This document shows positions 1 to 64,000 of a stretch of DNA of 64,000 nt, piece after piece. The position numbers were made by a program, and so were the translations under genes. The stretch spans positions 16,900,780-16,964,779 of the forward strand of contig NC_089280.1 in NCBI RefSeq assembly GCF_963678975.1, in the 5' to 3' direction. Under the pieces are notes generated by a model, which was not told the DNA's origin, searched no databases, and saw only the letters and a program-made list of their open reading frames with translations. The stretch comes from Dysidea avara. Its lineage: Eukaryota > Porifera > Demospongiae > Dictyoceratida > Dysideidae. Within the stretch, counting starts at the first letter, position 1. Every line of letters starts with the position of its first letter.

Positions 1-1507
1 TGGTCATTTGCATGGATAATGCTCTACATACGTTGGCATTGATACTTCCACAGGAGCAATACAAACACAGATAATTGACTGAGTTTTTATCACTATCATT
101 TAAAGGCTTGCACTGTACTAACATAATTAAAGCCAGTACATTGTACCCCCAACCTTTGATCCACAAATGCACACATTATCACACAACAGCTCGCCTTAGG
201 GCTTGCATCCCTTGGTTACCATGCTTCTAAATATTTAAATTTCATGGGTATGTTGTTGTAACTTTTACCTGTATTTGTTGCTGGATATATTCTCACCAGA
301 CAATTCTGCAGATGTACAAGCACAAACACTTGTTGAATTAACTGCAAGTAAAGCATCACTTTTGATTTGAACACTTTGGCCGAGGAATAGTTATCAGCCA
401 ACATAAATTTTTGCAAATACTGGCCACAAAAAATTACACGAGAATGTTCATCTTGAAAGATGAACATTTATACAAAATGACAACTTGTGTAACTACAAAT
501 TTATAGAAATATGTAAACAACATAAGAATAGGACCAAGTCTGTACATCACACATTAGATACTACTTCAACATGATGGGACTTCATAATCTGTATAACACA
601 ACAAAACAACATGTCAGTCTAACTACATGTAGCTACACAACTTATGAGTGTTAGCTATTAGCTATAGGTGTGAGCTAAATATGGTAGCCTATATCATATC
701 TTCATACTGAATAGCTGTATTGTCAACAAATTTAAAGCCTTTACATGGAATTTAACATTTCTTTAGTCCAATTTCATACAAAGCGTGTTTGTATGCACAT
801 GTGTGTTTATGCTGGCAGTTTATTCAGTGCTTGTGTGGTGGTGGCTGTCTTAGAATCAAAAACAATCGCATTTACCATAAAAGCAATATAAGTAGAGATT
901 TAGTACTTCTTGCAATTTCATACAAAGTGCATTAATGTATTGTGTGGTTTTGTATGAGAGAAAAGGTAAACCCACACTATATGCCATCCCTGCAAAATCA
1001 TTCACTTGTATATATATAGCCACGTAAATGATTTCAAATAGTGATATATGGAGTTAAAACTAGTGCAGTATATACTCCCCCATGAGACATAATCTTTGTT
1101 ATTATTTTATGAACCACGATACCATTTCCATTGAATGCTAAATGGTAGATTGTAAACTTTGTGAGTTGAAATTTACTGATAACTGCAACACCATTTTGCT
1201 GACAATAATATGGCAGCTTCATGATGAATCTTGATGGAGAGTAAGAAAGTGGAAGGTATTGTGTAGAATAAACCATTTGTGACTTGCTGAATTCCCTATT
1301 GTTTACTTCCTACCTATCAGTTTGCAGGTGTTTATTACATTGTCTGTTGTGTAATTAAACCACTACAAGTTTCTCATTTTCATTCACTAGAAAACTTTCC
1401 CCCCAAGTAATTAATTCTGGTATATTAGCTTCAATTTGATTATGAGGAAATACACCACATGGGGAAGTACTGATACCTATAGCATTACATGTGGTTGTTC
1501 TTTGTAG
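1..1507 (+). other. Intron 1 of the unit 1 pseudogene (3' part)
   Basis: Non-coding. 711-780 matches 31287-31345 in intron 1 of unit 3, and the last 60 bp match the other exon B acceptors (ATTACATGTGGTT). No exon A or other gene seen. Confidence 0.6.
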
Positions 1508-1951
1508 GTAATAACTTATTGAATGGTTATAGTGGCTTGAATCTGTTAAAAGGCAATAAGAAAAGAAAGTTACATACATGTGTAAAGCCCAAGCTCCCAC
1601 TACTGCAGAGTCATTGGAAGTGGGTGCTTATTAAGAGAGTAGAAAACTTATTATTAAAGATGATGTTTCTGGTCACCTTCCGTTTCACAGTACCAAATCT
1701 GTTTCCCATGCTAAGATGGTACATAATGCCAAAGAAAAGAAAAGGTAGATGTAATTTGTGGTTATATGCTAAATGTGATTAAGTTGTTATACTATTAGAC
1801 GAAGAAGTTTAAAACAAGCACAGCTGACACTTCACCAAGAGCTCCAACCCTACACACACCAAAAGCCAATTCTAAGAACTATCCTGTGTACTGCAGTAGA
1901 GGAGATAAAGGTTAGACAACAACACAGAATAGTAGTGAGTGAATTGCTGAT

Positions 1952-3150
1952 ATCATACAGTACAGTAGTACTGTATATTAGGGATAATTGAGGTTTGCAC
2001 TTTCTTACAAAAAATACTGACCAGAAACCAGTCTCACAATACCTTCATGGTGCCTTGGCAGTATTGGTTGGGTACAACTAATGGAAACGCTTCTAATATG
2101 TTACTATGAATTTTTAATTAGTGGAATTTTCTACTGCCTGACTGAATGACTGGCTGATGCCTTCAGCCAAGTGGATCTCAACAGCTAAGGCTACAGGCTT
2201 GTTTTCTTCACTGTTCAGCATCGCTTCAGTCTGAAAGGTGCCTTTTGGCATACCACAGTAAATAAAATGCACTCATCATGGACTTACCTTTGTGTCTAGC
2301 TGAAAATGAAGCATAATCGCCACTTCACTTTTTCAGTAATTGATAGTTGGGGAGTGCATTCAGATGAAAACAAAAGGTCTGGTGCCATTCTTTCTTTTGA
2401 TGTGGTATGCACAACTTCATCAGTCCATAGGTGGTGGAACAAGGGATCCCCCACTTTCATTAGACAATGCTAGCAAGAAAAGATTGAGATACTCTAATAG
2501 AGCAGTCAACTACTCTAATAGAACAGTCGCTTCTCTACATTTCTTTCAAAAACTGTAAGTGGCTGTTTAACAAGTAATAACATAGTGAAATCATCTAAAA
2601 TTAGTTTCTGAATGTGCATCCCAACCATCAATTACTTAGGTGGCCATGGCCATTACACTTCGTTCCATATGTTCAGCCTATTACACAATGTTATTAATGA
2701 AGAACAGTATAAGAAGCGCCTCTGCAATTAATCCAGTCACTACAGAAAATATGGGTGAAACATGATAGTTACCCACAGGGAAGCCATTTTGCACTACCGT
2801 GGATCAGCACCTTGTGCTGCCAGTGAAAAGAAATAGGACACAAAGGAGGACAAAAGCAAGTCCATGATGCATGCATTGTACACACTGCAGTATGCCAAAA
2901 GGCACCTGTCAGGCTGAAGCAACATTTAACAGTGAAAAAAAACCCCTGTAGCCTTTTGAGTTACACTTGTCTGAAGGCATCGGTCAGTCAGTCAGCAGAA
3001 AATTCTACTGAATAAGTGAAGGCACTTTTGGGCCTGATTTCTAACCAATACTGCCAAGGCCCAATGAAGTATTGTTTCTGGTCAATATATTTTGTAAGAA
3101 AGTGTAAACCTCCATGATCCCTAGTATACAGTACTATTGTACTGTATGAT
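1952..3150. repeat. Long inverted-repeat element R1, copy a
   Basis: Ends are ATCATACAGTACARTAGTAC and its complement. The two arms (1952-2280 and 2820-3150) pair along about 330 bp, through CCAATACTGCCAAGGC, the CTGAAGGCAT/CAGTCAGTC stretch and CAAAAGGCACCTGTC. The core holds a variant of the AT-rich site into which the DIRS element inserted elsewhere. No transposase is visible. It occupies intron 3 of unit 1. Confidence 0.7.
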
Positions 3151-5146: not shown

Positions 5147-6065
5147 AATTGTGACCTGCTGAGCAAAAACCTGACCAGTTCGCATTTTTCTCAAGCTTCT
5201 TTTAATGACTTCTTTGTTATCTGGAGGGAAAAACCAATGGGCCGTTCAAGTTTCAGCCTTATCTGGTGATTACTCTTGGAATTATAATAATAGACAACAA
5301 GAAGAGCAAAAAAATTGATTTGCACAGTGACTATACTGACAATAAATTACAGGTGCTCACATAATTATGTCACAAGTGCAACAGGCTATGGAGTTGGGTC
5401 TTGTCTCATTGTGTTCACCATGAACTGGGGAATTCATCAAGGTACAGTGTTTGGCCTATATCCACCCATCCTTTCAAGCAAGAAGATTATCCAAGCTTAC
5501 AAATGGCGACAATAAAGTTGTATTTTGCTGCAAACAAACACACATAACTCACGTTACAGAAATGAAACAAGATCACAGGCAGATCTGATGATGTATAAGT
5601 TCAATCAATTCAAGTCTTTTTTCAATGTTTACTGAAGTGATTAAAACATGCATAGTACATAGCATGCATTTTTTACCCTTCAATGCAATTTAATATTTTA
5701 AAAATTCAAACTATAGTCAGTACGCATTCACCTGAGTCCCTGCCAAATATAGTAATATCAAAGAGGTGAACATGTATTCACTCCCAATGGTTTGTACTGG
5801 AACAAGCATGTTTTCATGTTGCAAACATGTTTGCGTGCCTGAATTGTCCATACTAAATGTATGGGATATTTTAAAAGCCTCATAACTCACTTGTTCTTGC
5901 CCGTACCAAAGCACTTTTTTACTACTAGTTCTGCTGTTTAAGGGTTTCACAGCACTACTAAATGTTTGGGCAGCTGGCCCATGTAACAAGAGTTATTAAC
6001 AAGAAACCAGGGCTCAGGTGAACGCAAACAGACTAGTCGGGTTATTGCTCAGCAGGTCACAAATT
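5147..6065. mobile_element. Terminal-repeat DNA element, about 920 bp
   Basis: AATTGTGACCTGCTGAGCAA at the left pairs with TTGCTCAGCAGGTCACAAATT at the right, less one base, and weaker pairing continues inward for about 20 bp. Superfamily unknown; internal frames of 66 and 90 codons show nothing recognisable. Confidence 0.55.
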
Positions 6066-6324
6066 ATTATCACATGTAATATGATCCAGGTCAGACCCGG
6101 ATATTCTATAAAGCAGATGAGACTCACTTGATCAACCAGGACAAAATGTGACCCAAATAATCTGGACAACCCTATTTGGTTTTAACCGTGGTCCACAAAG
6201 TACAACCACTCTTTAAAACCCCCTACAGCTTAAAAAGAAAAATTCAAAAATTTGAATGTCTATATCTCACAAATGGCTGGGCAAATTTAATCAAACTTTC
6301 TATGCTGCCTACCCTACCTGGCAG

Positions 6325-6670
6325 TAGGGCTGGGCGATAGTGGATTTTTCAATGTCCGAACGATAGTAAGACACTGTTCACGATAGATGAAAGCACAACG
6401 ATAGTGAAAATTCACCTATTTTCTACTTATCACCTTCAAGAGATATGCAAGTAGGTATGTTACCTATGGATATGTTTTCACAAAGAGACAAAACAGTCTT
6501 TTTAGACTAATTTTTGCTCCCAAATATTATTTTTTTAAAGCATTTTGCAATAATATCTACATATTTTTACATGTTAATTACTGTCCGATAGTAATTTTTC
6601 TAACGATAGGCGATACCGATAGTGATACTATCCTGATATTCCGATATGTTCATACTATCCCCCAGCCCTA
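6325..6670. mobile_element. hAT-like MITE, copy 1
   Basis: Termini TAGGGCTGGGCGATAGT and its complement, flanked by exact 8-bp duplications CCTGGCAG (6317-6324 and 6671-6678). 346 bp, no coding capacity. Eight-bp duplications and TAGGG ends are hAT traits. Confidence 0.85.
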
Positions 6671-7533: not shown

Positions 7534-8191
7534 CTGTAGTACAATATACAGAAAAGTTGTGTTACAAAGTGATGGACATGTAAGGTAAGTAATTATTTAT
7601 ATTCCACCCATCCACCACATTAAATTCTACGTTAAGATGTTATAAAAGGAGTCCTAACCTATCTCCTCAGCATATTTCAAGCTTAAAATGAAGTCTGTAG
7701 GACATTTTTCACTTCATCATTTATGATACCACATGGAATTGTTAGAAATTATGACTGCACTAGGCATTCATTTGAGACCAGGTGTTTTTGTTCAAAAACG
7801 GGAATTTTTCTATACCCCAAACTAGACCAGGCAGAACCAACCATAATTTGAGGTATTTCCTTGTGTGTGCTATGTGCTATGTTGCATATAATTCCTTAGA
7901 AACTGAAAAGTGTTGCTGAAGAAAACAAAATCTGTTTAGCTGCATTAAGAGAAAAGAAACACTTGCTTACAAAAAGACTAGAGCTGTTAGAATCATTGTA
8001 AGTACATTAACTGAATTCGATAATGATTAATTTATAGCTTCGCTTTGAAACTTTTATACTCATTCTCTCATGTAATTTTCTGATACTCGATATGCTAGAG
8101 TTACAAGAGAAAAACCAAACAACTGTAAATTGCGGGGTCAAAATACTCTAATAGAACTGTCACCATGGGGTAAAAAAGGTGCAAGAAAATG

Positions 8192-47900: not shown

Positions 47901-50900
47901 TCAGTCACATAATTGAACAATTCCCTGAGGACAAGGTCCGTAAAGGGAGTTGTAATTGTATGAGGAGGTGGAGGATACAAGGTACAGCACTGATTAACAT
48001 ATGGTATTGCCCCTTATAACACTTGCACTACAGCACTTAAAAGCACAAACTCCATAAATAGCATGACATCACTTCCGGTACCAGCCCTTTAGACTTGTGA
48101 ACATGCAGGGCAGTACGTGGTGACACTGTCATGTATTATTAACTGCAGGATAGCTATCCTGAATCATATTTGAGACCAGTTACTCATACAGCACAATTAA
48201 TTTACGTACATAGAACAGTGATCATCGTGTAATACTACTACACAAATGTACATGACAATATGGATGCCATCAGTAATAACAAATCAATATAAATCACTTA
48301 TACATCATACGTCACTGGCAATGAAGTCTTGTCAAAAAATTGCTGGTCTTCACTGCATAAAGAAAGGAGAAATCATAATAGGGAGGGGAAAGTGCTGTAC
48401 CTTGTATCCTCCACCTGCTCATACAATTACAACTCCCTTTACGGACCTTGTCCTCAGGGAATTGTTCAATTGTATTTTGGAGGCTCCGGATACAAGGTAC
48501 AGCACTGATTAACATATGGTACGTTTAAAGCACCTAAATGTATCATTAATACAAGAATGTATAGTACCTTGTTTCTTCAGTTGATTGAAGGATGGCCCTC
48601 TGGAATGAATCTGAGCCATTAGGTCGGTAATAAAACCTCTCAAAGGTTGACTGTGATGACCAATTAGCTGCCTTCAATATGTCACAAACAGGGACTCCCC
48701 TTGTTGCAGCATGAGAGGTACTGGCACTCCTTGTTGAATGTGCTGAGAAGGTCTTGGTATCAACTCCAGCCCTACCTAGGGTAGCTTTGATCCAATGACT
48801 AATAGTTCCTGGCTTTGCCCTGTGTATGGGCTTCCTAGAAGTGACGAACACTGGCCTAGGTGACCTCATTGAAGAAGCTTGCTCTGCTGTTCTATCAAGG
48901 TATAATTGCAGAACTGTGACCGGGCAGACTTCTGTATTCTCTAAAAAGTAATGGTAGAGCACTTTTCTAGGAGTGCTCAACTTTCGGATCTGGTTTTAGT
49001 GAGCTGCACGACTGTGAATTCAACTCCTGTAGGAGTCTGTTTTAAATGATCACGATCAAGTGCAGCAAGGTCAGAACACCTGTCGGCATTAGTTATTGCT
49101 AGCAAAGTAGCTGCTTTCTTGGCAAGCTGTAAAACAGTCAATGATGCTGATTTGTAGTGATTAGTAAAGAAGTCAATCACTGTTCCAATGTTCCATGATC
49201 TGTCATACCTAGGAATTGGAGGTCTGCAGTTAAACATTCCCCTCATCAACCGTGAAACCAATGGGTGGCTTCCTACTGCTGTCCCTTCAATGCCCGGATG
49301 GGTTGTGGAAATTGATGATCGCATAGTGTTAATAGTGCGGTATTGGAGCCCTAAGTCAAACTGATCTGTTAAAAACTCCATGATGCTAGCTACAGTTGCT
49401 GAAATGGGATTGATACCCCGTCTACAACACCAGCTATTCCACTTGCGCCAGGCTGAGTTGTAAGCAGCATTGGTGTTTCCTCTCCAGGACTCGATGACCA
49501 GCTCAGCAACTCTCTGCGAAAAGCCCTGTGCTTCGTAGATTTGCCTGAGATAGGCCAAGCAGTCAGGTACAACCTCCCTTCCACTTGCAGAGGGTTGGGT
49601 TGGTAGTTCGTACTGAGTAATAGGTCGTGGTCCTCCGGAAGCAAAATTGGTAAGTCTGTCAGCATTGACAGTACCTGTGGGTACCAATGTTGTGCTGGCC
49701 ATGCCGGTGCTATCAGGCAAGCAAATTCGACCGAGTCCCGGTGTATCTTCAACAGAGCTCTGCCTACCAGGCAGAATGGGGGGGAAGAGATATGGAGTCA
49801 TTTCGTCCCATGATACTGAGAATGCGTCTATTGTGCATGCACCTGGGTCGGGCCTCCAACTGCAGTATGAAGGTAACTGGTGGTTCATTCTGGAGGCAAA
49901 TAAATCTATCGAAAATGGGCCCAGCATGTGGCTGAGGGTGTCGAAAACTGACGAACATAACTGCCAGTCGCTGCTGTCCTGGTGGTGTCTCGATTCCCAG
50001 TCTGCGGTTGTGTTCTCTATGCCTGGTAGGTATTCTGCTCGTAAAACAATTTGGCGAGCTAGACACCAGTCCCAAACCTGAATAGCAAGACGACAGAGGG
50101 GAGTCAGAGAAGAACTGCCCATCCTGTTCAGATACGCAATTGCTGTCCGGTTGTCCAGTCTCACTAAGACATTCACTGCTTCTTGTTCCTTCAAAAAGGA
50201 CTGAATAGCTAAAAAGGCTGCTTTCAGTTCCAACATATTGATGTGTGATTGGGACTCTTCTGCTGTCCATCGACCTCCAGTTCTCACTCCCTGACAGACT
50301 GCTCCCCAACCCTGAATAGATGCATCTGATGTTATCACTGTGGACGCCTCCAGTCTCAGCAGTGGTGAAGAGCAGTGTACCGGGAGTTGTGAAATCACCA
50401 TCTCAAGTCCTTGCAAGCCTCCTGTGAAAGGACTGTCTGCTCTTGATGAGCAAGAGTGGTGGCGACCTTCAGACTCTGCAGTGCTCGGTAACGTAGTGGA
50501 GCTATATAAACTGCTGGTTTGGTTGCCACAAGTTTCCCTACGAACCGTTCTAAAGACTTGGTTGGAACTGGACTGTGTTTCAACAATCCTGATGCTTCCT
50601 TCTGCAAGTCTGAAATCTTGGCCGGCGGTAAAGCTATGGTCATTGTCTGTGTATTGATCAGGAAACCCAGATACTCCAGCTGTGTACTCGGCATGAGCAC
50701 AGACTTGGGGAGGTTTATTATGAACCCCAGGGCCACGAGGAGCCACATTGTGGTTGCTAGATCCTGAAGCAACTGGTATTCTGACTGGGCTGTTAGTAAC
50801 ATGTCGTCCAAGTATATGACTATGCATACTCCCACCTGTCTCAAAAATCTGATTGCTGGTTTTGTGAGTTTCGTGAAGGTAAAGGGAGTGGTGGAGAGCC

Positions 50901-53900
50901 CGAATGGGAGAGTTTGAAACTGCAGGAGCTTTCCCTGGCCATTTTGAAAGGCCAGCAGAGGGTGGAACTCTTCTGCTACTGGTACTGTTAAGTACGCATC
51001 CTTTAGGTCGATCTTGACCATTAAGGAATCCCTCTGTAGGATTGATGGCATCATGTGCAGCCCTTCAATCTTGAAGTGGGGTGGGTTTAAATACTGATTC
51101 AGATGCCGCAAATCTATAATTGGACGCCACCCTCCTCCGCTTTTGGGGACGACAAAGAGAGGATTGACTAGGTGTGCCTGACTCTTGTGAGCAGGAGCAA
51201 CTACGCCTTTTGAGACCAAGCCTGAAATTTCGATTGCTAGTGCTTCTGCATGAACAGAGTCCAGAGCAAACTGCACCGGAGCCTGCGTGGGACTTGGCCA
51301 TTGCTGCAGGGGTAACCTGTAACCCTTCACAGTGGTAAGGATCCATGGATCCCTTGTCAGCATTTCCCAGTTGCGAGAAAATTGGGCCAGTCTGCCACCA
51401 ACTGGTGTCTGTCTGTGTAATGCTACTAATGACATATCTAAGTCCAAGGAGGAGAGGGTTTTGGCGGGTTTGGGGAGTTGACTCAATTTCTCCTCGATTG
51501 GGGAGCAGGTGATTGGTACTGATGTCTTGGTTGCGATGGTCCCCAGCCTCTGAGTTGGCTGTGATACTGTGAGGGTTGCTGCGATACTGTGAGGGGTGGG
51601 CTCCGCCCCACCGGGCCCCTCAATTTCCGGCAGGGCTCTCTCGAAAAAACTGCTGTTTAGTGCGACCGATGGTCGACGAAAATCGTGGTTTATGCGTGTA
51701 AGGGTGGAATCGTTGAGAAGAAGGTAGTGAAGATATTATTTTTGAAAGGGTGGTATCAGTTTCCACCTGACCTTTCAATTTGGTCGTAAACCCTGGGCCA
51801 AAGAGGAATTCCCCAGCTTGTGGCTGTGGCTCCTGGCCATATTTCGCTAAAGAACTGTTTGCGATTTGTAGTAAGTTTGTTCTCCTCGCCTGGGACAACA
51901 ACTCGTTCGCGTTGCCTAGCAGAACGAGTGTACGCTGCATTATATCCATCACGTCTAGGACGTTTATTGAAGCATCAGGGTCTTCCAACAGGCCATTCTC
52001 GATTAGCTCAGACCAGAGGCATGCGATTGGTCCGCACGTCTTAAGTAGCGCGGACTGTACCTTCGCAAACTCGCCATCTTCCCTCGCAGGGAAACGCGCC
52101 CCTAAGTGGTCCTTAATAAACTTATCCACCTGAGGTGGTCTCATCGCTGGAGTCTTAGGGACCGGGTGCTCTTTGTGCATCAGGGTCCGGTTTTCTTTGT
52201 TTAGTGTACACCTCATGTGTTTCTCCAAGTATTCATTGATACTTGTATGAGCTTCGAACGTGTCAGTGGGCATGGACTGAGGGTCAAATTCACAAACGAT
52301 CCCACAATTGAACGTGGAGTGGTCGGTTCATTATTATTAGTCTCACATACATTTAATTGATGCCCACCTTGGTCTACTCTTCCATTTGGATCACAGACAC
52401 CTACTTGGGTTGTGTCAAGAGAGGCGTTCGCCTCTACCAAAGACGGCATACTGGCTTCGAATACATTTCCACTTCCTGGCTGGCCCGTAGATGTCGTCCA
52501 CAGATTTGCACTTCCCGTCTGGCACATTTGCGTGACCAGGGGGGTTACACTTCTCGACTGGCATGTTTGCGTGACCAGCGAGGCACTGGCACTTCCCGAT
52601 TGGCACATTTGCGTGACCAATGGGGTTACCCTTCCCGGTTGACACATTTGCGTGACTGCCAGGGGAATTCAGTCCTGATTGGTACATTTGCGTACCAAAA
52701 GCAGGGAAACAAGGTAGTGACTGAGATGTAGTCCTTGGCGGGTGGTCGGCACGGCTCACCTGCTGAGAGGAAAAACTGTCGTTTTCATTCGCTCCAGACA
52801 TCAGACGGCCCAGAAGAGCTTCTTGTAAGGAGTTGTCAGCGGATACCGCCTCCAAGATGTTGTCCAACGTAGATCTACGGGCCATGGCTTTATCACACTT
52901 TTAGACTGTACACGTGCTGCTGCGAGCAAGTAAAAGGGCTGGTACCGGAAGTGATGTCATGCTATTTATGGAGTTTGTGCTTTTAAGTGCTGTAGTGCAA
53001 GTGTTATAAGGGGCAATACCATATGTTAATCAGTGCTGTACCTTGTTTCCGGAGCCTCCGAAATACAATTAATGTGTCTGGCGCCATTCTTTCCTTTGAT
53101 GCAGGTAATGAATTATGCTCCTGCAAAAAAAGTTAACAAACAAGTGAAAGGAAATTTTGAGTAGGGATCACAAAAAATGTGATGAAACAAGAGAGGTCAT
53201 CTACACCTGCAGCTATGTACTAGTTGACATTTAATCCCTATAACTATATATTGACAGGATGAATTAGGACAGCAAATATAACTACCGGTGTAGATGATCT
53301 CCCTTGTTTCATTGCTTTTTTTCTGTGATCCCTACTTAAATGTAAAATTTCCTCAAATGTGATTCATGGAGCAACCACATTGCTCTACAATTTTCATTAA
53401 ATTAAGCACAGAACAGAATGACTGTATTTGTATACTGCTGGGTGTTGATACCTTTGTGTTATGTGTTCAGGGAAGCAATACAGGCAAAGTTATAGTTGAG
53501 TGATTTTGGGATGACATTTTGGGCAGGAAAGCCTGAATCATGATTTGTATTGGGTGCAAACAGTGTGTAGATTGAATTAGCAGGCACTTTGATTATATAC
53601 AGATACATTGACTACATGTGTACCAAACACAAGGGACATTAAATACCGTATGTATTTATCTGTATTATTAAAGCCGGGCTGAAATAAACACTGGGTCCTA
53701 AATGAAGGCCAGGGGGTGCTACCTTAATACAAGGTTTTGTACTCGGTCTTGTACAGTACAAGATTACAAAAGCTTAATTTGTAGAACAAGGCTTAGCTGC
53801 TGCTAGGAGAAACACTATTTTCAGCTGGTTTACAAATTATAAGGAATAAATGTCTGGGTACAAACAACTCATTGTTACTGTTCATTGATCACTTGAAGAG

Positions 53901-56900
53901 TCAACTCAAAACTCACCAAGCTATACTATCTTTACAATTTAAATGTCCTCTACGGCCTTCGTTAAAACCCGGAACGGACCGGACCAGAATTTTATTGTTG
54001 AGGAGCGCGTATCCAACTAAAATAAATTTAGGTGCGCTTGCAAGGGATACAGGACGTGGATTCTGTTCTTCATTTGCACTCAGGGCACGATTCTCCACTG
54101 ATTGCCAGAGTGGCTGATGGTGATTTCAAAACAAATATAGTCGTATACTGGTATATACACGTTTACGAAACGGAAATGTAGTGTATTACACGGACTCGAT
54201 ACTTTCACCGTAGCTAACAATGGCGGCGAGATACAAGCTAGCTAAGACTGGTCACAGATAATATACCTGGACTGATCTACATACCGTACACAAGGAAATT
54301 TAGACGTAAGGGAATTTGACGAATCGGTTTGATTAGTCAAATTTTTCTTACGTCTAAATTTCCTTGCGTACAGTATGTATACAGATCAGTCCAGTTAGCT
54401 ATATTATCTATGACCAGTCTTAGCTAGCTTGTATCTCGCTGCCATTGTTAGCTATGCTGAGAGTATCGAGTCCTTGTAATACACTACATTTCCATTTCGC
54501 AAACTTGTATATATACCAGTATACGACTATATTTGCTTCGAAATCACCATCAGCCACTCTGGCAATCAATGGAGAATCGTGCAAATGAAGAGCAGAATCC
54601 ACGTCCTGTATCCCTTGCAAGCGCACCTAAATTTATTTTAGTTGGATACGCGCTCCTCAACAATAAAATTCCAGTCTGGTCCGTTCCAGGTTTTAACGAA
54701 CGCCTGATCAGTAAATATGCAGCGCACACACACACCCCTCCCCCAAGCCATGTTATAAGACAGTTTGAGAACACATGGATCAATACCATAGTCTGGCATC
54801 TCCCATCCCTTTGAAAGAGTAAGGGTCCGGTGAAGTACAGATCCCATATCATTTCTATTGGCAAAATTCTACACTAGCCAATTATGACATTCACACACAA
54901 AATTTAATTGTCTTGGCAATGCAATACTTTTATTCGAATTGGAGGGCAATCATCTGACGTAACCAGCAGGTATGCATGCCGACTAATTGAATTCCTTTGA
55001 AATGATGTAGGACCTTATTTTGCAAGTTTGTGAAAGGGTGGGACTATATCAATATACCCCTCAACTTTATGTCTTTACATAAAGCATTAATTATCCTAAA
55101 TTTCTGACTTATTTATAATTATCTGATTATGCTGTCCAAAACCAAAACCACCAGGTCACAGTTGCTAGGATAAACAGTAGTGCAAGTGACCCAAACAATT
55201 TATGTACACTGATGCCATCATAGTGTTCTGTGTGAGGTATGGTATCCTACCACAAGTAGGATATCATTGTCATCAACCTGAAGCCAAGTTGTTGATAACA
55301 TCAGGTTGATAATAATGATACCCTACGAGTGCAGATGTGGTTTAATAACTAGCTTCTATCCCACACTTTAAAGCACTTGACAATTCACAATTGCTGAAGT
55401 CAACGTGTTGATAACAATGATATCATATAATTATGTTATGATACACCTTTTATCCCACACTTTGAAGCATTTGACTTCATCCAAAGGCTGCAGCACATGT
55501 TGCTGTCAGACCTTCAGTGCTGGTCAACAACAACATCACAATGAGGCTAGATAAACAACCAAGTTGTATATATTTATTTATTTATTTATTATCAATTTTG
55601 TCAAGGACAAGTATGTATGGTTCAATTTTTGCTGTGCTTGTAGTTTTAGGATATAGTATGGCTTCAAGTTGCCTTTGATCCTACTGAATGTGTGAATCAG
55701 GTTGTCTTTCATATTAAAGATTCTCACCTTCTGGGGTTTAACTCAATGTAGGGCTTCCGTGAAATAAAAGAAAAGTAATGTAAAGGCTGACAGAATATTA
55801 TTTGTATTTCTTTATGTGCTGTGTATTTGAATGTGATGTAGTTGCATATAATACTTTAGAAACTGAAAAGTGTTGCTGAAGAAAATGAAAGCTGTTTATC
55901 AGAATTAAAAGAACAGAGAAACTTACTTACAAAAAGATTAGACATCTTAAAATCATCGTAAGTATATTAACTTAATTCAGTACATGACTAATAATATATA
56001 TAAAGCTGAAAAGCCGTCTGTCTGCATTCCATTTAAGTTCACACATTCTTCTCACCAGTTGCTGTATGTATCAAAGCGGTTTTGGCACCAAACGATGCAC
56101 TCATTGTCTAGGAATAAGCTAACGTTTAAATAAAGCTTCTAACTGCCATCGTTCGTCGTTTGTAGTGTGTTTAGTGCAAGGATGTAGAACTTGAATTCTT
56201 TCTGTAAACCGTATGCAAGCCGCAAGTAAACACCTATGCCAGTCAACTCATGCATGCCTTTATAATATGGTTTTTAAGATTGATTGGTAATGTTAGACGA
56301 TTGGCTTAGTAGTTAGGGCACACGCTTTATAAATACAAGTTCCCCAGTTTGAATCCAGCTAGGTTTTTTTTTTTCCGCTCTGGCAACCTTTTTAATGCAT
56401 CTTCTTTTTTCTGTTGCAAGAAACTTTTCATGTAATTTTTTCTCTGATTCTGAACCTTATTGGTGCAACATTCTTTTTTATTTTAACTCTCACATTATAA
56501 AAAATGAAGTGTGCTTTGCACACAAAAGCAATGTCATAGAGCACACTTTGGTGTGACAGGACACACTTTTTGTGTACAAAGCAAACTTCATTTTTAGAGT
56601 GCAGTGGAAACACTTTGACATCAACTTATAATACTTTTGTATAGAAATAAGGATAATTGTAATGTGCTATTGCTGGAAATACATGAGACTATATTATGTC
56701 TATTGAGTAGACTTTGTTTTAATATTGAATGAGTATCCTTCCCTCAAAGTTTAGCTAATAGTATCATACAGTACTGTATAGTAGGGATAATGAAGGTTTG
56801 AGGTTTCCTGCCCAAAAATATCACCCTCAGCCTTACTTTTCCTTCACATCAGCCTGGCAGTATTGGTTAAGCATAATTAAACCCAAAAATGCTTTCAGAG

Positions 56901-59900
56901 CAATCCCAAACTCTTTTAACAATTTTTTTTTAAATTAACAGAATTTTTGCTGATTAGCTAACTGATGCCTTCAGCCAAGCATAACTCGACTTCAGTTAAT
57001 GTTATGGACTTGATTTCTTCACTTGTTTCAGCTCAAGACATACTTTTTTTTGTAAACTGCAGTAGCTACAATGCATGCATTATGGATTTACTTTTATCCT
57101 CCTTTGTATCTCATTTCTTTCTCCACTACTGCATAGATGTTGATTTGTGGTAACACTTCATGGCTGCTATTAAACTATCACGAGAATTGTCCATAATTTT
57201 CCGCAGTGGCTGGAGTGATTGCAGAGGTTTTTATCGTACCATTCTTTGTTTGTAATACCGTATAACAGGTGAAACATATTAATGAAGTAATTGATAATAG
57301 GGGCGTGCATTTGGTTGTAGTCACTGGATTGATTGCAAAGGTGCTTCTTGTACTGTTCTTTATTTACACTGCTGTATAATGAGTGGAACAGAAGTGGAAT
57401 GGCCATTTCACTTTTCAATAATTAAAATCAGGGCATGTGTTCAGTCGCGCAATTAATATGTGTGGTGCCTTTGTTTCCTTTGATGTAGTATGTGCTGAGC
57501 AATGAAACGAGGGAAGTCATCTACACCTGTGACTATACTAGTGGACATTTAATCCTACTTATGCTATTTGCCAGGCTATAGTAGAAATGTCCACTAGTAT
57601 AGTCACAGGTGTAGTGACCTCCCTTGTATTTCTATCATCCCTACTCAAATGTAAAATTTTCATACACTTATAGTATTAGAAGCGTATCACGGCTCAGTGT
57701 GCTCAGAAAATTACATGACAGAACAAGTTTAACAGTTTTGAAATATATATATATATATATAAACTAGCACTGGTACCTGCCATACATGCAGGACTTTATT
57801 TCCCTGATTACACTATATTTCAGTACAGTTATACATGTAACTTACTGCTCAGTGGACTAAAGAACTAAACCGGATCAAATTTGAAGCAGTGTTTGTCGTG
57901 CTGGCTATTTGGACACATGCAGCATAATAATTATGATATCCAATGCAAGTACATCCAACCCAAAGTGGTGTAATTTACTGTAAACACACCTACACTCCTG
58001 CAGTACCGCAACAGTTAATTAATCCTGCCCTGTATGTGCTGGAAATCATTGCCCTATGTGCAGGACTTCATTACACTATTTCAATTAGCAACAATGGTAA
58101 GGATATAAGTATATCTCTGAAACAAAGTCTATAGCCCTGCCCTATAGGTACAGGACTTTATTACCCTGCATGGAAACACTATATTTCAGTACACTTATAC
58201 ATGTATGTGTACAGTGTAACTTAATTAGTGCTGCAAAAAAACTAAACGTTAGCTAATACTCATTCATTTTAAAGCAACATTTGTTGTGCTGGTTCTTTAA
58301 CCCTTAAACATGCATAAGCCTATATATAGGCAGATTACGCATGCCCCTGGAAAACGTATAAGCCTATATATAGGCTTTTACGCATGACTGTAAACAAAGT
58401 GCTGTAACTTTTGAAGCATTCATCATATGGCTTTGTAATTTGTGCCATTCTACTCGTGATGTAATAAGCATTAAAATGATACCTAGGGGTTTACCCTAAT
58501 ACCAAAGTATAGGAACTAAAACTCGCCGTGAAAATAATTCTTAACAAAGAACTACAAAAATGTGCTACATACCTTTAGAAAATGATCCATAACTCCTTGC
58601 CAGTTGGTCCGAATCGCTGCAAACAAGTATTAGTCAAATCGCCATTCAATGGCGAATCAGGCCATATACAGCTCACGTGATTAAACCCACAATCAATATG
58701 ACAGACAAGACAAAGAATGTGCTGTTGCGATAAAGCGAGACGTTATTCTTCTTCGCTTTATAACAAGTAAGCCTTTGTTGTTACAGTGGTTATTTAGCCT
58801 TCCCCAAGTAGGCCAATAATAAGCTTTCTATTGATATCTCGTTTTATGCTAATAGAGTTAGGAAAGGCTATCTTGCCTCACTATATAAGTTTGCTTTGTC
58901 TAAACACGTATTCCTTAAAAGTTACGTGCACATTCACGGCTTAATTCCTTAAAAGTTTTCATGCGTGTTTAAGGGTTAAGACAACAAATGTTCAGTAGCC
59001 TCATCTTATATCCATCACTTTGTTGCATAAGTTAAATTTTGGCAACAGACCTATTGGTATATTACAGAGTGAAGTCACCAGAAGATAAAGAAAGAGACAG
59101 CAGTGATAATAGTTATGAAGATGATGAAACTTCTCTACAACAATCAATGGAGTGTGACTCTGTGATAGATGTTACAGAAGATGATTCTAGTGAGCAATAT
59201 GTTGAACAAGACCAGTCAGTAGAGGATAACAATATAAGCAACACTAGTAACACAGGTACATACATATACATAATGTTTCTAGTATTGTATAGCATGTCAT
59301 TTTTTTTATTTTTGGATATTTCAAAGAGACTTTTCTCTTCGAAAGTGACTTACCTTCATGTGATCAAACATTTTTGTCATGGAAATATTGTCTTTTAGCT
59401 CAGTATTAGTTGTTGTAATGGTTAAACAGTATCATTACTGCATCAATAGCCAGTAAACAGCTGATCCAGAACTGCCATTGTTGGGAATTACTAGCATAGG
59501 CGGTGGTTGATTAGAATTTGCTCCGCTCAAGACTCCCCCAGTCTTCTCTCCAGTGCACAAGAATTCAATAAGTAAGTCAGCTGTTGGCAAGGAGCACGTG
59601 TATCTTTCAGAATTTGTGACACGAATTTGAAATCCACCTGGACTTCAAAATATGCACTCTTAGAACTTTAAACCTTCAAAATTCAGATTTTGTCCCTTCT
59701 GTGAAATATTCTGCTCCAACAATAACCTGCTATATGGTAGACATTCCAGTCTGATTTTTAAATTTTGAAAAATGGACTTTTTATTAGGTCTGTACCAATA
59801 CCAATATTATATTGGTACCGATATTACGAGTATCTGTATCACAAGTCTACAATACAGATATTACACTGGCCAAAGTGACATTGTCAAATGGTAGAGTTGT

Positions 59901-62400
59901 TACCTTGCAAAAGTTGACCTGCATGAGTTCAAATCCCAGGTTGGTCAAAAAATTTTTCTTTTTTTTGTACCACTTTTTTTTTGTTTTTTGGTGGTTGATT
60001 TTTTTGTTCTGTGATTTGCACTGACAAAAACAGACAAGTTTGTTAACACTTGTAAGTACAAAGGATTACATCAATTTGTATGAATTGTAGTAATTTAACA
60101 CATACTCTATTATGCTGTAATGCATATCGGTTCGACTTTGAAGTACCAGCTGTGTATATGATATCAGTTCATTAGAAAACCTGTATTGGAAATAGACAAT
60201 AAATATCAGATATCAGTATTGGATGTAAAATGTGGTATCGGTACAGCCCTACTTTTTATATGCTCAATAAATACCGTAAAAGCAGAAAATTTGACAGGAA
60301 CAATATTTTGGTGAATTGAACAACTTGTATATTTGACAAATTTAAATTTGACTGTTTCTCTTGCTTGCAGGGGCCTGTGTTAATCATGCATGGACCGCAT
60401 TGAAAATTTCATATGGCGTCATGAAAGCCCAAGCAATAGTCATGGCAACTCAAGTGATAGCTTCAAGTAATATAGCTGTATCCAAGGCCGAGACCATGTG
60501 TAATGTAGCTTCAGTAGCTATCTGTCATGGGATTCATCAACGGGAGTAGGAGAATGCACCTTGCAGGTAGGTTCCTTTGGCCTGCATACAAAAAATCTGA
60601 AAGGTACAAAGAAATATCTGGCTGCAGCTGGGGGACCAGGTTGGACCATGCTTAGTAACTATAAATAATATCTTTCAATGTTGACTAGATCTTCGTCAGA
60701 ATAAGCTGTGTAGGTTCACAGGTCTTCCCTTGGATTTCTCTGTGTTTTCAATCTCTTTAGCTAGCCATATATTTGGTGGATTTAAATTTGACAGTTTCAA
60801 TGAAAATTCACCAACTGCCAGATTTAACTCCCTGCCATATTTTCTGCTTATATGGTAGAGTGCTCATTGTCTATCTGAGAAATATATAGTTTGTTAGGTT
60901 GGAATTGGCTACTTTGGCATGCACATTGCTTTGAAACTGAAAAAGGTGCTTCTTCTCCAGGACTCCCTATGCATTTTAAAGGAGAAAAAAGGTGCAATTG
61001 AATTAGAAAGCCATCTAGTAACCTGGGTTGTCTTAATGTTGCAGTTACATACTTCTAGTTGCAAGTTTGTACATGCACTGAGAGTAACATTAGAATCTCA
61101 GTCATCTTTGTACGCTTTTTGACAAGCAAACATGTTTCACCTAATGCACTTGTCAATACAATGGTGCGTACCCATAGGCAGGTGGCTATATCTCAAGTAA
61201 GTAAGTAAGTAAAGGCAAACAACTGAATTGGGGTGTCATGATGATGCAACAGTACCTAAGGTGCAGTTGTGGGTTACTGACTTTGAAGTGGTTAATACTT
61301 TTGAGTTGGTGACACAACTATCAAAAAATTGTTGTGTAGGTATGCACTTTAAAGTAAATACTAATTGATTGGGGTTTTTTTTAACTCCATACAATCAGCT
61401 AAAGCTGTTCTTCCTTGCGAGAGACATTACAATACACAAACATACAGTGGAACCTCAGTTATCTGAACCCCTTGGGACCAGGGTGGTCCATAAGTCTAAA
61501 AAGTCTGTATCTTTGAATCTGTGTTTAAACAACCTTAAAATAGCACAAAGAATATTTTTTTAAATACCAGTAGTTTTTACTACCCTAATAGAGCAGTCAT
61601 TTCCGTAGTTTGGGTAACCAAGAATCCAGATAAGTGGGGTCGGGATAATTGAGGTTCCACTGTACAAAAATTGATGGCAGTAACTACAATATATGATAAC
61701 AATTATGTACCACCAACAGGTTCAACGATTACAAACAAGACAATACATACACATTACAAAAACTATTAAAAATGGCATCCAGTAATGGTATTGTGGGACT
61801 AGTGAATTCCTTCCATCTGACTGCACGTTTTTCAAAGTTTCTAAGTATTCTGTGTGTCATGGCCGGGGTTCTATTGGGAGAATGTTTTTATTTTAAAAAT
61901 GGGTTCTCAATGTGAATCATTGTGTTTTGTATTGTCAGAATGTGCTTTAATGTTATGATAATATGTCTCCTTGTTTAGAGTATGCTGTCACTGATGGTAG
62001 TCAGTCATCACTTTTTGCAAATCCATTATTCACTTCTCCACTCTACTACACTGCTGCGGCACAATTGGCTGCATTGCAGGCTCAGTCCATTCAACTGGCT
62101 CAACTACAAACATTTACAAACCCCATATGGCTGCCACCATTTGTCTGGCCCAATCTAAACAGTTTATATTCCACTGTTACTGGAAATCAAGTGAATGGAA
62201 CTAATAGTTTATATGAAAAACAACACTTACAGGTATTGAATGGAGTCAATGGACATGTAAGGAAAGAAGTTGGGTCAGAAAGTTACTGTTCAGTTATTAA
62301 ATGTAGTGTTGTGAAAACTACAGGAAATGTTGACAAGAGAAACCAATCCTCCATATCAAAGGAAACTTTTCGTGTGGATAATTTTGTCACCACTTTATAG
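41925..62400 (+). CDS. bHLH-leucine zipper protein, unit 4 (complete six-exon gene)
   Basis: Exons by GT/AG and reading frame: 41925-42024, 46646-46904, 46956-47067, 55860-55957, 59068-59255, 61979-62400; 1179 nt, 392 residues. Seen: KKRK patch at residues 48-51; acidic run near 83-90; bHLH at 113-159 with H113, N114, E117, R120 and R121, the residues class B factors use to bind CACGTG-type E-boxes; heptad positions L159, N166, L173, L180, L187 form a zipper; Ser/Asp/Glu-rich 191-252; Gln/Ala/Leu-rich then NPIWLPPFVWP in the C-terminal exon. Spacing from the basic His to the V-L pair of helix 2 equals that of Max, with no gap. Known of the family: such proteins dimerise through HLH and zipper and regulate transcription in the nucleus. 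Inferred: a nuclear DNA-binding regulator; orthology to Max, Mxd, Mnt or Myc cannot be assigned. A DIRS retrotransposon and many MITEs lie in its introns. Confidence 0.82.
43125..43288. mobile_element. Foldback MITE family TACCACT, copy 2 (right end lost)
   Basis: Arms pair almost perfectly through the loop-less centre ATTCATCCCGGGATGAAT near 43207-43224; the outer right end is missing. Confidence 0.72.
43400..44060 (+). repeat. Partial R1 copy interrupted by a hAT-like MITE
   Basis: R1 text before 43465 and after 43868 (CTGAAGGCAATCAGTTAG through GGTTTCTGGTCAATATTT) joins once the MITE and one copy of its 8-bp duplication are removed. Other partial R1 right ends are at about 16905-16985 and 19800-20060. 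Confidence 0.6.
43465..43867. mobile_element. hAT-like MITE, copy 3
   Basis: Termini TAGAGCTGAGCAATAGTA and TACTATCGCTCAGCTCTA; 8-bp duplication CATTACAC at 43457-43464 and 43868-43875. 403 bp, inserted in an R1 copy. Confidence 0.85.
44273..44479. mobile_element. Foldback MITE family TACCACT, copy 3
   Basis: TACCACTCAAATGCAACG and its near complement at the ends. The 97-codon minus-strand frame here is the arms read through, not a gene. Confidence 0.75.
45656..46004. mobile_element. Short GGCGGATC-type element
   Basis: Starts CAGTGGCGGATCTAG and ends in GCCGCTG; ATATA flanks both sides. Subterminal GGGGGTTTCAG occurs at each end. Probably a relative of the element at 9909-10773. Confidence 0.6.
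47977..48090 (+). repeat. DIRS left inverted terminal repeat
   Basis: 114 bp, the reverse complement of 52933-53046; I see no mismatch. Outside it lies a 66-bp left extension (47911-47976) found again only in the internal complementary region. Confidence 0.9.
48392..48522. repeat. DIRS internal complementary region
   Basis: The left part is the reverse complement of the element's left end (47911-47991); the right part is the reverse complement of the right end (about 53025-53070). They meet at one shared AATT, as expected for a copy of the circle joint used as template to complete the ends. Confidence 0.88.
48546..48980 (-). pseudogene. DIRS tyrosine recombinase, catalytic C-terminus in a shifted frame
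   Basis: 144 codons without an ATG at the real join. HSTRSASTSHA supplies the His-x-x-Arg pair, and FERFYYRP supplies the nucleophile Tyr. The preceding frame, with ADRCSDLAALD providing the first Arg, ends 4 nt away, so a single frameshift splits the recombinase in this copy. Confidence 0.85.
48977..50827 (-). CDS. DIRS RNase H, linker and start of tyrosine recombinase
   Basis: A 616-codon open frame; the first 140 or so codons overlap the reverse transcriptase frame and are probably not used. RNase H residues are visible: Asp in VITSDAS, Glu in MLELKA, Asp in VRLDNRTA. Next comes the DIRS linker containing DLFASRMNHQLP. The linker's expected continuation with IAPAWPAQHWYPQ is in another frame at 49752-49390, so RNase H and recombinase probably belonged to two overlapping frames as in other DIRS elements. 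The C-terminal third, from SWRGNTNAAYNSAWRKW, is the N-terminal core-binding part of the recombinase. It stops at 48977. Confidence 0.85.
   Translation of the reverse strand: MHSHILGRHVTNSPVRIPVASGSSNHNVAPRGPGVHNKPPQVCAHAEYTAGVSGFPDQYTDNDHSFTAGQDFRLAEGSIRIVETQSSSNQVFRTVRRETCGNQTSSLYSSTTLPSTAESEGRHHSCSSRADSPFTGGLQGLEMVISQLPVHCSSPLLRLEASTVITSDASIQGWGAVCQGVRTGGRWTAEESQSHINMLELKAAFLAIQSFLKEQEAVNVLVRLDNRTAIAYLNRMGSSSLTPLCRLAIQVWDWCLARQIVLRAEYLPGIENTTADWESRHHQDSSDWQLCSSVFDTLSHMLGPFSIDLFASRMNHQLPSYCSWRPDPGACTIDAFSVSWDEMTPYLFPPILPGRQSSVEDTPGLGRICLPDSTGMASTTLVPTGTVNADRLTNFASGGPRPITQYELPTQPSASGREVVPDCLAYLRQIYEAQGFSQRVAELVIESWRGNTNAAYNSAWRKWNSWCCRRGINPISATVASIMEFLTDQFDLGLQYRTINTMRSSISTTHPGIEGTAVGSHPLVSRLMRGMFNCRPPIPRYDRSWNIGTVIDFFTNHYKSASLTVLQLAKKAATLLAITNADRCSDLAALDRDHLKQTPTGVEFTVVQLTKTRSES
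50395..51486 (-). CDS. DIRS reverse transcriptase domain
   Basis: 363 codons. Seen: a fingers motif with VVPKSGGGWRPIIDLRHLN, LMVKIDLKDAYLTVPV carrying the first catalytic Asp, LPFGLSTTPFTFTKL, and YLDDMLL with the catalytic Asp pair, followed by a thumb with YLGFLINTQTM. All are in the order of DIRS/Ty3-like reverse transcriptases. The frame stops at 50395, where RNase H should continue in line but lies one frame over, so a frameshift separates the two. In a working element it copies RNA to DNA. Confidence 0.9.
   Translation of the reverse strand: MSQLPKPAKTLSSLDLDMSLVALHRQTPVGGRLAQFSRNWEMLTRDPWILTTVKGYRLPLQQWPSPTQAPVQFALDSVHAEALAIEISGLVSKGVVAPAHKSQAHLVNPLFVVPKSGGGWRPIIDLRHLNQYLNPPHFKIEGLHMMPSILQRDSLMVKIDLKDAYLTVPVAEEFHPLLAFQNGQGKLLQFQTLPFGLSTTPFTFTKLTKPAIRFLRQVGVCIVIYLDDMLLTAQSEYQLLQDLATTMWLLVALGFIINLPKSVLMPSTQLEYLGFLINTQTMTIALPPAKISDLQKEASGLLKHSPVPTKSLERFVGKLVATKPAVYIAPLRYRALQSLKVATTLAHQEQTVLSQEACKDLRW
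51620..52885 (-). pseudogene. DIRS ORF1, gag-like, frameshifted
   Basis: Begins at the ATG of 52885. The N-terminal part is open to 52415, the middle continues in another frame (52647-52213), and the C-terminal part returns to the first frame (52273-51620). The middle holds imperfect tandem repeats of a Gly-His-Ala-Asn-Val-Pro plus Gly-Lys-Cys motif, encoded by direct DNA repeats of roughly 45-60 bp at about 52490-52690; slippage there probably caused the frame changes. The downstream block containing LLKTCGPIACLWSEL is the part most like DIRS gag. No zinc knuckle seen. Confidence 0.65.
52933..53046 (-). repeat. DIRS right inverted terminal repeat (5' end of the element)
   Basis: Partner of 47977-48090. 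The gag start codon lies about 50 bp inside it. A 24-bp outer extension ends at AATT, 53067-53070. Confidence 0.9.
53162..53334. mobile_element. Foldback MITE family GGAGGTCACCTACACC, copy 2
   Basis: TAGGGATCACA ends pair with TGTGATCCCTA; inner arms carry the GAGGTCATCTACACC motif. It lies just beyond the split R1 copy. Confidence 0.75.
53960..54702. repeat. Large near-perfect palindrome
   Basis: The left arm 53960-54323 is the reverse complement of 54340-54702, with scattered mismatches and a short centre near 54331. Each arm carries the same outward frame with EEQNPRPVSLASAPKFILVG (minus strand at 54098-53913, plus strand from 54566) and an inward ATGGCGGCGAGATAC-like stretch. No target duplication found. 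It may be a foldback element or an inverted duplication of a gene piece. Confidence 0.75.
56296..56375 (+). repeat. tRNA-derived SINE head
   Basis: Box A-like TTGGCTTAGTAGTTAGGGCA and box B-like AGTTTGAATCC at tRNA spacing, then a T run. The cloverleaf is not intact, so it is not a tRNA gene. Confidence 0.6.
56500..56595. repeat. Palindromic repeat with AAAAATGAAGT ends
   Basis: 11-bp perfect ends, with further pairing of GTGTGCTTTG-like arms. The GTGTGCTTT text is also at about 29000-29190. Confidence 0.55.
56757..57500 (-). repeat. R1 repeat copy with the unoccupied DIRS target
   Basis: Starts at ATCATACAGTACTGTATAG and reads through the same core as 47207-47910. At 57441-57470 the site is uninterrupted, with a single AATT at 57451-57454. 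Confidence 0.65.
57502..57643. mobile_element. Foldback MITE family GGAGGTCACCTACACC, copy 3
   Basis: Arms extend through ACACCTGTGACTATACTAGT and its complement. As in copy 2, it lies immediately after an R1 core, so the two may move as one unit. Confidence 0.72.
58301..58975. mobile_element. piggyBac-like non-autonomous element
   Basis: Termini CCCTTAAACATGCA and TGCGTGTTTAAGGG, flanked by TTAA on both sides (58297-58300, 58976-58979). TTAA targeting and CCC starts are piggyBac traits. Contains two GCCTATATATAGGC palindromes near 58317 and 58363. Confidence 0.78.
59785..60251. mobile_element. hAT-like MITE, copy 4, carrying a SINE
   Basis: Termini TAGGTCTGTACCAATACC and GGTATCGGTACAGCCCTA; 8-bp duplication CTTTTTAT at 59777-59784 and 60252-60259. 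467 bp. The middle contains the tRNA-like sequence at 59882-59950. Confidence 0.82.
59882..59950 (+). repeat. tRNA-like SINE sequence inside a hAT-like MITE
   Basis: AATGGTAGAGTTGTTACC and GAGTTCAAATCCC resemble boxes A and B; poly-T rich sequence follows. Confidence 0.5.
60272..60857. mobile_element. Terminal-repeat element ending in TACCGTAAAAGCAGAAAAT
   Basis: Ends pair over about 90 bp, including GGTGAATT and AATTTAAATTTGAC blocks. A 62-codon frame (60361-60549, Ala/Val/Ile-rich) inside follows an AG-like site; I do not recognise it. Confidence 0.55.
61445..61662. mobile_element. pogo/Tigger-like MITE
   Basis: CAGTGGAACCTCAGTTATC and its near complement at the other end, flanked by TA. 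218 bp, in intron 5 of unit 4, 317 bp before exon F. Typical terminal repeat of the pogo/Tigger branch of Tc1-mariner. Confidence 0.8.
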
Positions 62401-62814
62401 TGCTTAGACATTAGAGGTAGTTAGTTTTATATGTAGAACATTTTATTTTCATCATGGGTTTACTAGATATGTATATAGCCTAATTATGTCAACATAATGA
62501 AAAGGTAAATATGTAATATATGTGACTACTTTTAAAAAAAGATGAAAGACATAACACTGCTTTAGTATTATTTCTTTTCACCATCACCAATATTTCCTTC
62601 AATGCTTTGATTTTGAGATCACGAGGTGGTTCTGAAATAAGGGGTATATGATTAGTGCATCAGATTAAGAGTACATCACTATCCCTACTGTGCATTTCCA
62701 TTATGGTATCTTGAGCACAGTAGGGGTATAACACTTATTGTTTTACTGTGAATTAATATCGTGCGCTACTCCAACTTGTTTCAGTGCTTTTTATCGATGT
62801 GCTATGGTCCCTAC
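62401..62814. other. 3' flank of unit 4
   Basis: Follows the exon F stop, matching the start of the other spacers in places. A hairpin pairs CCCTACTGTGC with GCACAGTAGGG at 62685-62725. No AATAAA close to the stop. Confidence 0.45.
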
Positions 62815-63520
62815 TCTAGTTGAAAATTCCGAATTTTTCTGTGTACTTGTTTGTTAGCTTTTTTTGTAAATAATAATTATGACTGGTGAACCCACGCATA
62901 CCGCATCTGGAATGGTGCCGCACGCCCCAATTATCTGAAAAGTGAAGTATCCATTACGCTTCATTGTCGGCTATGTACATAGCAACATGAATCAAGAACT
63001 GTTTGAAAAGCACCTCTGATATCAAAATAGCCACTATGACAACTACGGACAATTTCCGTTACGAAATGAAGCCATCACGTGCTATCGCCAAATCGACACT
63101 TTTTGCTGTCAGTAAAGATGAATGGGATACAAAGGACAACACTGGTAAGTCCATTGTACATACTGCGGTATGCCAAAAGGCACCTGTCGGGCCGAAGCGA
63201 CGTCAAACAGTGAAAAAATCAAGCCCATAGCCTTAGCCGTTATCGAGTTACGCTTGTCTGAAGGTATCAGTCAGTTACTTACTCAGTCAGTAGAAAATTC
63301 CGTTAAATAAATTATTTTTAAAATTCCATAGCAACTTGTTGAAAGCGTTTTGGGTCGATCTGAAAGCTTGTTTGGGCTTAGTTTCACCTAACCAATACTG
63401 CCTGATCGTCGTTAGGGGAAATTGAGGCTGTTTTTTGGGTGATATTATTTTGTGGGCCACGCCTACTCCTTTGTGGTCCCTACTATACACTACTATCGTA
63501 GTGTATGATAAGAGGATTGT
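62815..63520 (+). repeat. R1 repeat copy downstream of unit 4
   Basis: Same core and terminal CACTACTATCGTAGTGTATG. Its last 85 bp are part of the inverted duplication at 63435-64000. Confidence 0.6.
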
Positions 63521-64000
63521 CTTTACTTCTGAATATTTATGTTGGTCAAGAGTATCAGGTTTATGGCTTATCAGATTGTTGTACATATTTAACTATACGA
63601 TCATAATCTGAAGTATTTTATAATTGTATGTAGTAGAGCTTCTATTGGCTGTGGTAGACATTGCTGTAGGAAATAGTGAAGCAGGTTATTTCCCCAACAG
63701 AGTCACTACAACATTTCATCAGAGTCAGTTGTGTGATTGATATGAGCAATTGTGGTCAGTTATAGACTAGATGTACTCACCACCAAATAGAAGCTCTACT
63801 ACATACAATTATAAAATACTTCAGATTATGATCGTATAGTTAAATACGTACAACAATCTGATAACCCATAAACCTGATACTCTTGACCAACATAAATATT
63901 CAGAAGTGAAGACAATCCTCTTATCATACACTACGATAGTAGTGTATAGTAGGGACCACAAAGGAGTAGGCGTGGCCCACAAAATAATGTCACCCAAAAA
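63435..64000. repeat. Inverted duplication running off the window end
   Basis: 63435-63644 and 63787-64000 are near-identical reverse complements around a 142-bp spacer. The arms include the end of an R1 copy plus ordinary unit spacer sequence, so this is not a simple terminal-repeat element. Confidence 0.85.

Follow-up and report, generated by a model that had tools for sequence, protein, structure and literature searches.

The 64,000-nucleotide (nt) stretch of contig 9 (C9) analyzed here, hereafter the window, carries four units (W1 to W4) of a repeated gene that probably encodes a basic helix-loop-helix (bHLH)-zipper protein of the Mxd/Mnt type, amplified in a lineage-specific manner, which we infer to be expressed, pair with Max, bind DNA, and recruit SIN3. 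The count of four members given by the original prediction, which was made on the DNA letters of the window, is too low, the genome holding about 30 places, most of them outside the window. What the locus holds is a genuine and extensive expansion, specific to its lineage, of a gene of known kind, together with a new subclass of copies devoid of the SIN3-interaction helix (SID). Our data support the earlier proposal of a Max/Mxd/Myc-like bHLH-zipper and allow it to be narrowed to Mxd/Mnt by the SID motif, the introns, and profile comparison.

Exon plan and units in the window

Self-comparison and exon searches define a gene of six exons: A (SID), B (linker and basic region), C (helix-loop-helix), D (zipper), E (acidic), and F (tail). 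The complete unit, W4, encodes 392 residues with GT-AG at all junctions and consistent phases. Its exons lie on the plus strand at 41925 to 42024 (A, with the ATG and the SID NLLLIVEAANILE, located by the SID pattern scan), 46646 to 46904 (B), 46956 to 47067 (C), 55860 to 55957 (D), 59068 to 59255 (E), and 61979 to 62400 (F, through the stop). In six copies spliced according to a single phase plan, acceptors were AG in 30 of 30 cases and donors GT in 29 of 30, the sole non-GT donor (exon E of copy L3) having a GT available 12 bases downstream. The recurrence of these exons with matching splice phase at so many places is not due to chance.

All four states claimed for the units (pseudogene, truncated, lacking ATG, and complete) were found. 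W1 is a pseudogene, with a stop and frame breaks in exon B (1507 to 1745, plus strand, tblastn) and frameshifts in exons E and F; exon searches placed its exon C (helix 1-loop-helix 2) at 1799 to 1910 and its exon D (zipper) at 7900 to 7997, both on the plus strand, while the exon A search found no match near this unit. The claim of a fixed order along one strand is not strictly correct, as the frameshifted E-F block of W1 is inverted (minus strand, 7535 to 6881; exon search). W2, on the plus strand, retains exon A with its ATG (14210 to 14291), although bases are missing inside the SID, which is shortened by this internal deletion. Its exon B (21576 to 21834) is followed by a truncated exon C (21887 to 21980) in which 30 of the 36 residues are matched before the DNA runs on as the exon F tail.

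W3 has an open frame and was correctly described as lacking the ATG, the start codon being ACG at 25973. It does possess an exon A (25973 to 26072) with an intact SID, which corrects the earlier description, and its exons B (33538 to 33811), C (33866 to 33977), D (38042 to 38139), E (38310 to 38497), and F (38581 to 38948, ending with the NPIWLPPFVWP tail and the stop) follow on the same, plus strand. Spliced, W3 has 379 codons up to the stop.

Family assignment of the array gene

The evidence that we weighted most heavily is exon A, which in W4 fits a Mad-type SID. The pattern scanned, phi-x-x-phi-phi-x-A-A-x-x-phi-[DE], is close to the SIN3-PAH2 motif phi-x-x-L-phi-x-phi-A given in PMC8657803. 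It matched nine times in 527,992 six-frame codons, seven of the matches being array exons A and two being chance occurrences. Of the nine exon A copies scanned, seven conform to it with the sequence NLLLI/FVEAANILE (in L3, K replaces N), with I or F at position four versus L in the PMC8657803 motif. Judged by its residues, exon A qualifies as an N-terminal SIN3-interaction amphipathic helix with putative binding capacity. Copies that combine exon A with the basic region HNAKEKKRR (HNAKENKRR in W3), in which the class B residues H5, E9, and R13 are present, are designated type I.

The comparisons of the bHLH-zipper itself point in the same direction. Profile comparison with hhalign gave 92.3% for Mxd/Mnt (78 columns), 70.6% for Max, and 14.4% for Myc, and MNT had the top raw pairwise score among 14 references for all seven array sequences tested. 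In shuffling tests, copy L1 reached a z-score of 8.4 with MNT and 5.3 with Max. In the tree, the array grouped with MXD/MNT with support of 94/95 (branch not starred); for the array plus MNT alone, support was 63/27.

As an independent line of evidence, intron positions were compared with those of related genes in the same genome (searches covering 550.8 Mb in 108 contigs). A query with the MNT domain retrieved three places, i.e., Myc (E 0.0045), a locus on contig C10 (0.049), and Max (2.1). The C10 locus (L049, C10:27176900-27177400) reads RLTHNLLEKHRRAQLRDCLEILRSQVPFTDKLTTLSLLQSARKYIE across two exons and groups with MXD1/MXI1 at 86/90; it is an Mxd-like gene, likely the ordinary Mad of this genome. 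Both of its bHLH introns, one of phase 2 within R12 and the other, of phase 0, just where helix 2 ends, match those of the array. Neither position is common to the Max or Myc exons read: the Max-like basic-helix exon (L006, contig C6) continues uninterrupted past R12, apparently as far as the loop, and the Myc-like gene (L002, contig C13), in which EIDVVTVE is present, has its whole bHLH-zipper in one exon.

Membership in the individual families was also assessed by their plan. Max, a bHLH-zipper without SID, does not accommodate the type I copies, which have the SID motif and an R12 intron not common with the genome's own Max; nor does Myc, with its bHLH-zipper at the extreme C terminus, since W4 extends about 200 residues beyond its zipper. 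MNT proper is not a fit either, the W4 linker between SID and bHLH containing few prolines.

Several observations weigh against the Mxd/Mnt assignment. The HLH match anticipated by the original prediction was obtained with Pfam for all six spliced copies at E ≤ 10 (best E 0.001), but W4 and W3 fall below the cut-off (W4, 15.1 bits versus 20.7; W3 without exon A, 9.7 bits, E 0.99). The array exons were absent both from the 26 places obtained when the whole genome was searched for HLH and from the three places matched by the MNT-domain query. Helix 1 has a glutamine where phenylalanine is usual, and the stem of the array in the tree is very long. A PDB search with the exon A peptide retrieved none of the known SID chains. 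A human-type SID query matched nothing in the genome, array included; with no match anywhere, this query lends no support to exon A and is silent on whether the C10 gene has a SID. In the family comparisons, for which the reference domain sequences were entered by hand, the shuffle z-scores of W4 were practically the same for Max (8.2) and MNT (8.3). In the PDB searches, Max aligned with the profile without gaps from the basic region to the zipper over up to 78 residues, but the matches were weak (Max, E 0.8 to 1.6, behind an unrelated coiled coil at E 0.24; Myc, E 4.9). Approximately unbiased (AU) tests left clades of the array with Max (p 0.11), Myc (p 0.18), MGA (p 0.31), and Mlx/Mondo (p 0.14) unrejected.

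Some of these data would suit a divergent bHLH-zipper family derived from Max or Myc, the helix of exon A being then an independent SID-like motif. Max is the best bHLH match in the PDB profile search, it equals MNT in the W4 shuffle z-score, and the AU tests reject neither partner. We nevertheless regard such an origin as unlikely, because the profile and raw pairwise scores favor Mxd/Mnt, both bHLH introns are shared with the genome's Mxd-like gene but with neither the Max nor the Myc exons that were read, and the SID fits the Mxd/Mnt plan. That the protein is no bHLH at all but a coiled-coil protein with a basic patch is very improbable. The HLH scores under the cut-off, the matches to Sas6_CC in five of six members and to ATG16 in one of six, and the coiled coil at the top of the PDB matches would agree with it; the array nonetheless has the H5-N-E9-R12-R13 residues and the loop length of MNT/Max, and it agrees with a clear Mxd-like gene in its helix 2 spacing and in both introns.

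Extent and repeat structure of the array

All matches to array exons in the genome lie on C9, between 16.73 and 17.80 Mb. There were at least 30 matches to exon F, 91 to exons B to D, 23 to exon A, and 25 to exon E, which after merging by position correspond to 32 B, at least 30 F, 29 C, 27 D, 24 E, and 23 A places. Nearly all of these places, and every F place but one, are contained within 0.7 Mb (16.73 to 17.43 Mb). Between 16.76 and 16.87 Mb the units are on the minus strand; past that point, most are on the plus strand. The strongest match of the whole-genome HLH search (L001), also on C9 and 0.2 Mb beyond the main block, was considered as the founder of the array and discarded, being by eye a class A bHLH and not a bHLH-zipper; the presence of such a class A gene points to an animal. 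That search yielded 26 exon-level candidates, 21 of them above the family cut-off; for comparison, 68 bHLH genes are given for Nematostella and 16 for Amphimedon in PMC1828162. By its size and content, the bHLH set of this genome would seem to resemble that of a sponge.

Two larger repeats contain the units: a block of about 100 kb, present three times from 16.90 Mb on, and another of about 62 kb that is repeated from 17.23 Mb. When repeats 1 and 2 of the longer block were compared, identity was 99.1 to 99.97% in three of four stretches, a degree of similarity that might indicate inflation of the copy number by the assembly through retained haplotypes or expanded repeats. We consider this quite unlikely: identity drops to 96 to 97% in the fourth stretch, repeat 3 is only 82 to 98% identical to repeat 1 depending on the piece, and the six spliced copies are 6 to 18% apart. 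Moreover, the repeat 2 counterpart of W3 (L050), 100 kb away and 99.1 to 99.6% identical in two stretches, has kept its ATG, so the start loss of W3 is private to the copy in the window, i.e., to repeat 1.

State of the copies and signs of constraint

Copies were read across the window and the 200 kb to its left (16.73 to 16.965 Mb), giving a total of 12 units, not including an isolated fragment of exon D at 16.878 Mb. Half of them are open, namely, L1, L3, L4, L7, and W4 of type I and L8 of the SID-less type II (in L8, B-C was translated and D, E, and F were each seen open, not spliced as one). In W3, start loss is the only defect. The remaining units (W1, W2, L2, L5, and L6) are broken or partial: L2 has a frameshift in B and no D was found, L5 has a frame break plus a stop, and L6 consists of an exon A without ATG plus exon B only. 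The original prediction of a decaying array of four members underestimated the locus, with six of the 12 readable units open and about 30 places in all. The proportion of open units fits birth-and-death evolution better than plain decay.

The open copies look constrained, with pooled ratios of nonsynonymous to synonymous differences (pN/pS) of 0.40 in exon A (5 copies), 0.47 in B (13), 0.48 in C (16), 0.45 in D (12), 0.71 in E (12), and 0.585 in F (15); because the pairs compared are nonindependent and any copy containing a stop was set aside, these figures give constraint in outline and no formal test. In neutral simulations with substitution alone, only 1 to 7% of sequences remained stop-free for each of five open copies. 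Across six aligned copies, the SID core varies at one position only (I/F). The exon F NPIWLPPFVWPNL tail is likewise well conserved across copies (pN/pS 0.585, low divergence; e.g., window positions 38581 to 38948), and it had no match in the Pfam or PDB searches made here. Synonymous divergence is uneven, from 0.10 to 0.11 in C and F to 0.28 to 0.35 in D and E, and this difference between exons hints at gene conversion.

It is possible, if not our favored view, that the array is neutral or selfish, with one or a few working copies and the rest carried along by unequal crossing-over in a repeat-rich region. Six of the 12 readable units are broken, partial, or start-less, the copies lie among many inverted repeats and elements, and the low divergence of exons C and F suggests gene conversion, all of which would agree with such an array. 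It would sit less well with five type I copies still open despite base differences of 6 to 18%, with a pN/pS below 1 in all six exons (albeit from nonindependent pairs), or with the near invariance of the SID core.

Type II copies lacking the SID

The type II copies are SID-less and have RTANEKIRR or RTADEKIRR as the basic region, in which H5, the E-box histidine, is consequently lost. The match pattern indicates five such places, of which four were read: L5, L8, L051, and L052. Besides L051 and L052, the C9 segments 16866140 to 16866540 and 16823540 to 16823940 hold such copies. Their exon B contains an internal ATG (MEKAKAPTTVES or MEKATAPTTVES) closely preceded by in-frame stops. B-C is open in three of the four copies read, with a pooled pN/pS of 0.53.

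According to PMC8465425 and PMC8984142, known family members deprived of the SID no longer repress or have the opposite effect, and by analogy with these relatives the type II copies may be candidate antirepressors. Their products would start inside exon B and keep the HLH and zipper. A single-locus repressor/antirepressor system, in which SID-bearing type I proteins would repress Max/E-box targets and type II proteins would titrate Max or the type I proteins in the manner of Id proteins, is a tentative and rather doubtful extension of this idea. If true, the copy numbers of the two types would tune the output of the Myc network in a sponge-like animal.

Proposed role and evolution of the array gene

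An intact type I protein would comprise, from its predicted exons, a SID helix, a class B basic region, an HLH, a zipper, an acidic stretch, and a conserved C-terminal tail. It would most likely dimerize with the genome's Max and bind E-boxes, and recruitment of SIN3/HDAC would then lead to the repression of Myc targets. The predicted partners of this network are encoded in the genome, i.e., Myc, the Max exon, one Mxd-like gene, and a PAH-repeat (SIN3) locus where all five PAH matches cluster (contig C11). Enrichment of E-boxes (CACGTG) upstream of exon A, as a sign of autoregulation, was sought and discarded, since the five counted over 13.5 kb are too few when the overall density is about 0.2 per kb. 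Tandem and segmental duplication would have added copies to the array, and frameshifts, deletions, inversions, and loss of the start codon would have disabled others.

Other elements in and next to the window

A DIRS-like retroelement with inverted terminal pieces (47911 to 53071, minus strand) lies inside the C-D intron of W4. Its reverse transcriptase matches Pfam RVT_1 at 2e-25 and its tyrosine recombinase Phage_integrase at 4e-6, the latter at its cut-off. Ten open reading frames of the window outside the array gene were scanned, and the two that matched are both in this element. Two long palindromes are probably foldback elements: one at 53954 to 54704, with 88% self-complementarity across about 770 aligned bases, and one at 63432 to 64000, extending to the window end, with 86% across about 580. 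Immediately to the left of the array, C9:16711286-16716281 (L030) contains an open frame of 1,665 codons, near which, at 16704916 and in another frame, ankyrin-like repeats can be recognized by eye.

Comparison with known systems

The original prediction held that genes of this class are usually single copy in early-branching animals, in agreement with the counts for Amphimedon (one Mad, no Mnt) and Sycon (neither Mad nor Mnt) in PMC5064789; in the earlier PMC1828162, no Mad is reported for Amphimedon. In Drosophila, Mnt is the only Mxd protein (PMC8465425). No report of such an expansion was listed in the literature searched, which lacked most subscription papers. Growth is under the control of the Myc-Max-Mxd network, which has few members in the animals compared, and an approximately 30-fold amplification of its antagonist arm, with signs of constraint and with a class of copies devoid of the repression helix, would, if true, constitute a natural dosage experiment on Myc antagonism.

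The array gene resembles MNT of human and Drosophila in its N-terminal SID, in a bHLH-zipper with a loop of equal length, and in giving the best raw score. E-K in the basic region is also common to both. From MNT it differs in having its own C terminus (NPIWLPPFVWP) and about 30 copies. Human MNT likewise has six exons, but it has 582 residues versus the 392 of W4 and a proline-rich region between SID and bHLH that is absent from the array gene (PMC8465425).

With MXD1/MXI1 (Mad), the array gene shares the SID plus bHLH-zipper plan. Mad proteins have an acidic stretch after the zipper, like that of exon E. Compared to L049, the array has a loop two residues longer (counted by hand), and L049 groups with MXD1/MXI1 (86/90) whereas the array does not.

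Max has no SID. The array aligns with it without gaps from basic region to zipper but is cut by an intron at the R12 site, which the genome's own Max exon reads through. As to the type II copies, they are devoid of the SID like the Mxi1 isoform Mxi1 WR and SID-deleted MNT (PMC8984142 and PMC8465425); they differ from Mxi1 WR in being a separate class of genes and not an isoform, and in having also lost H5.

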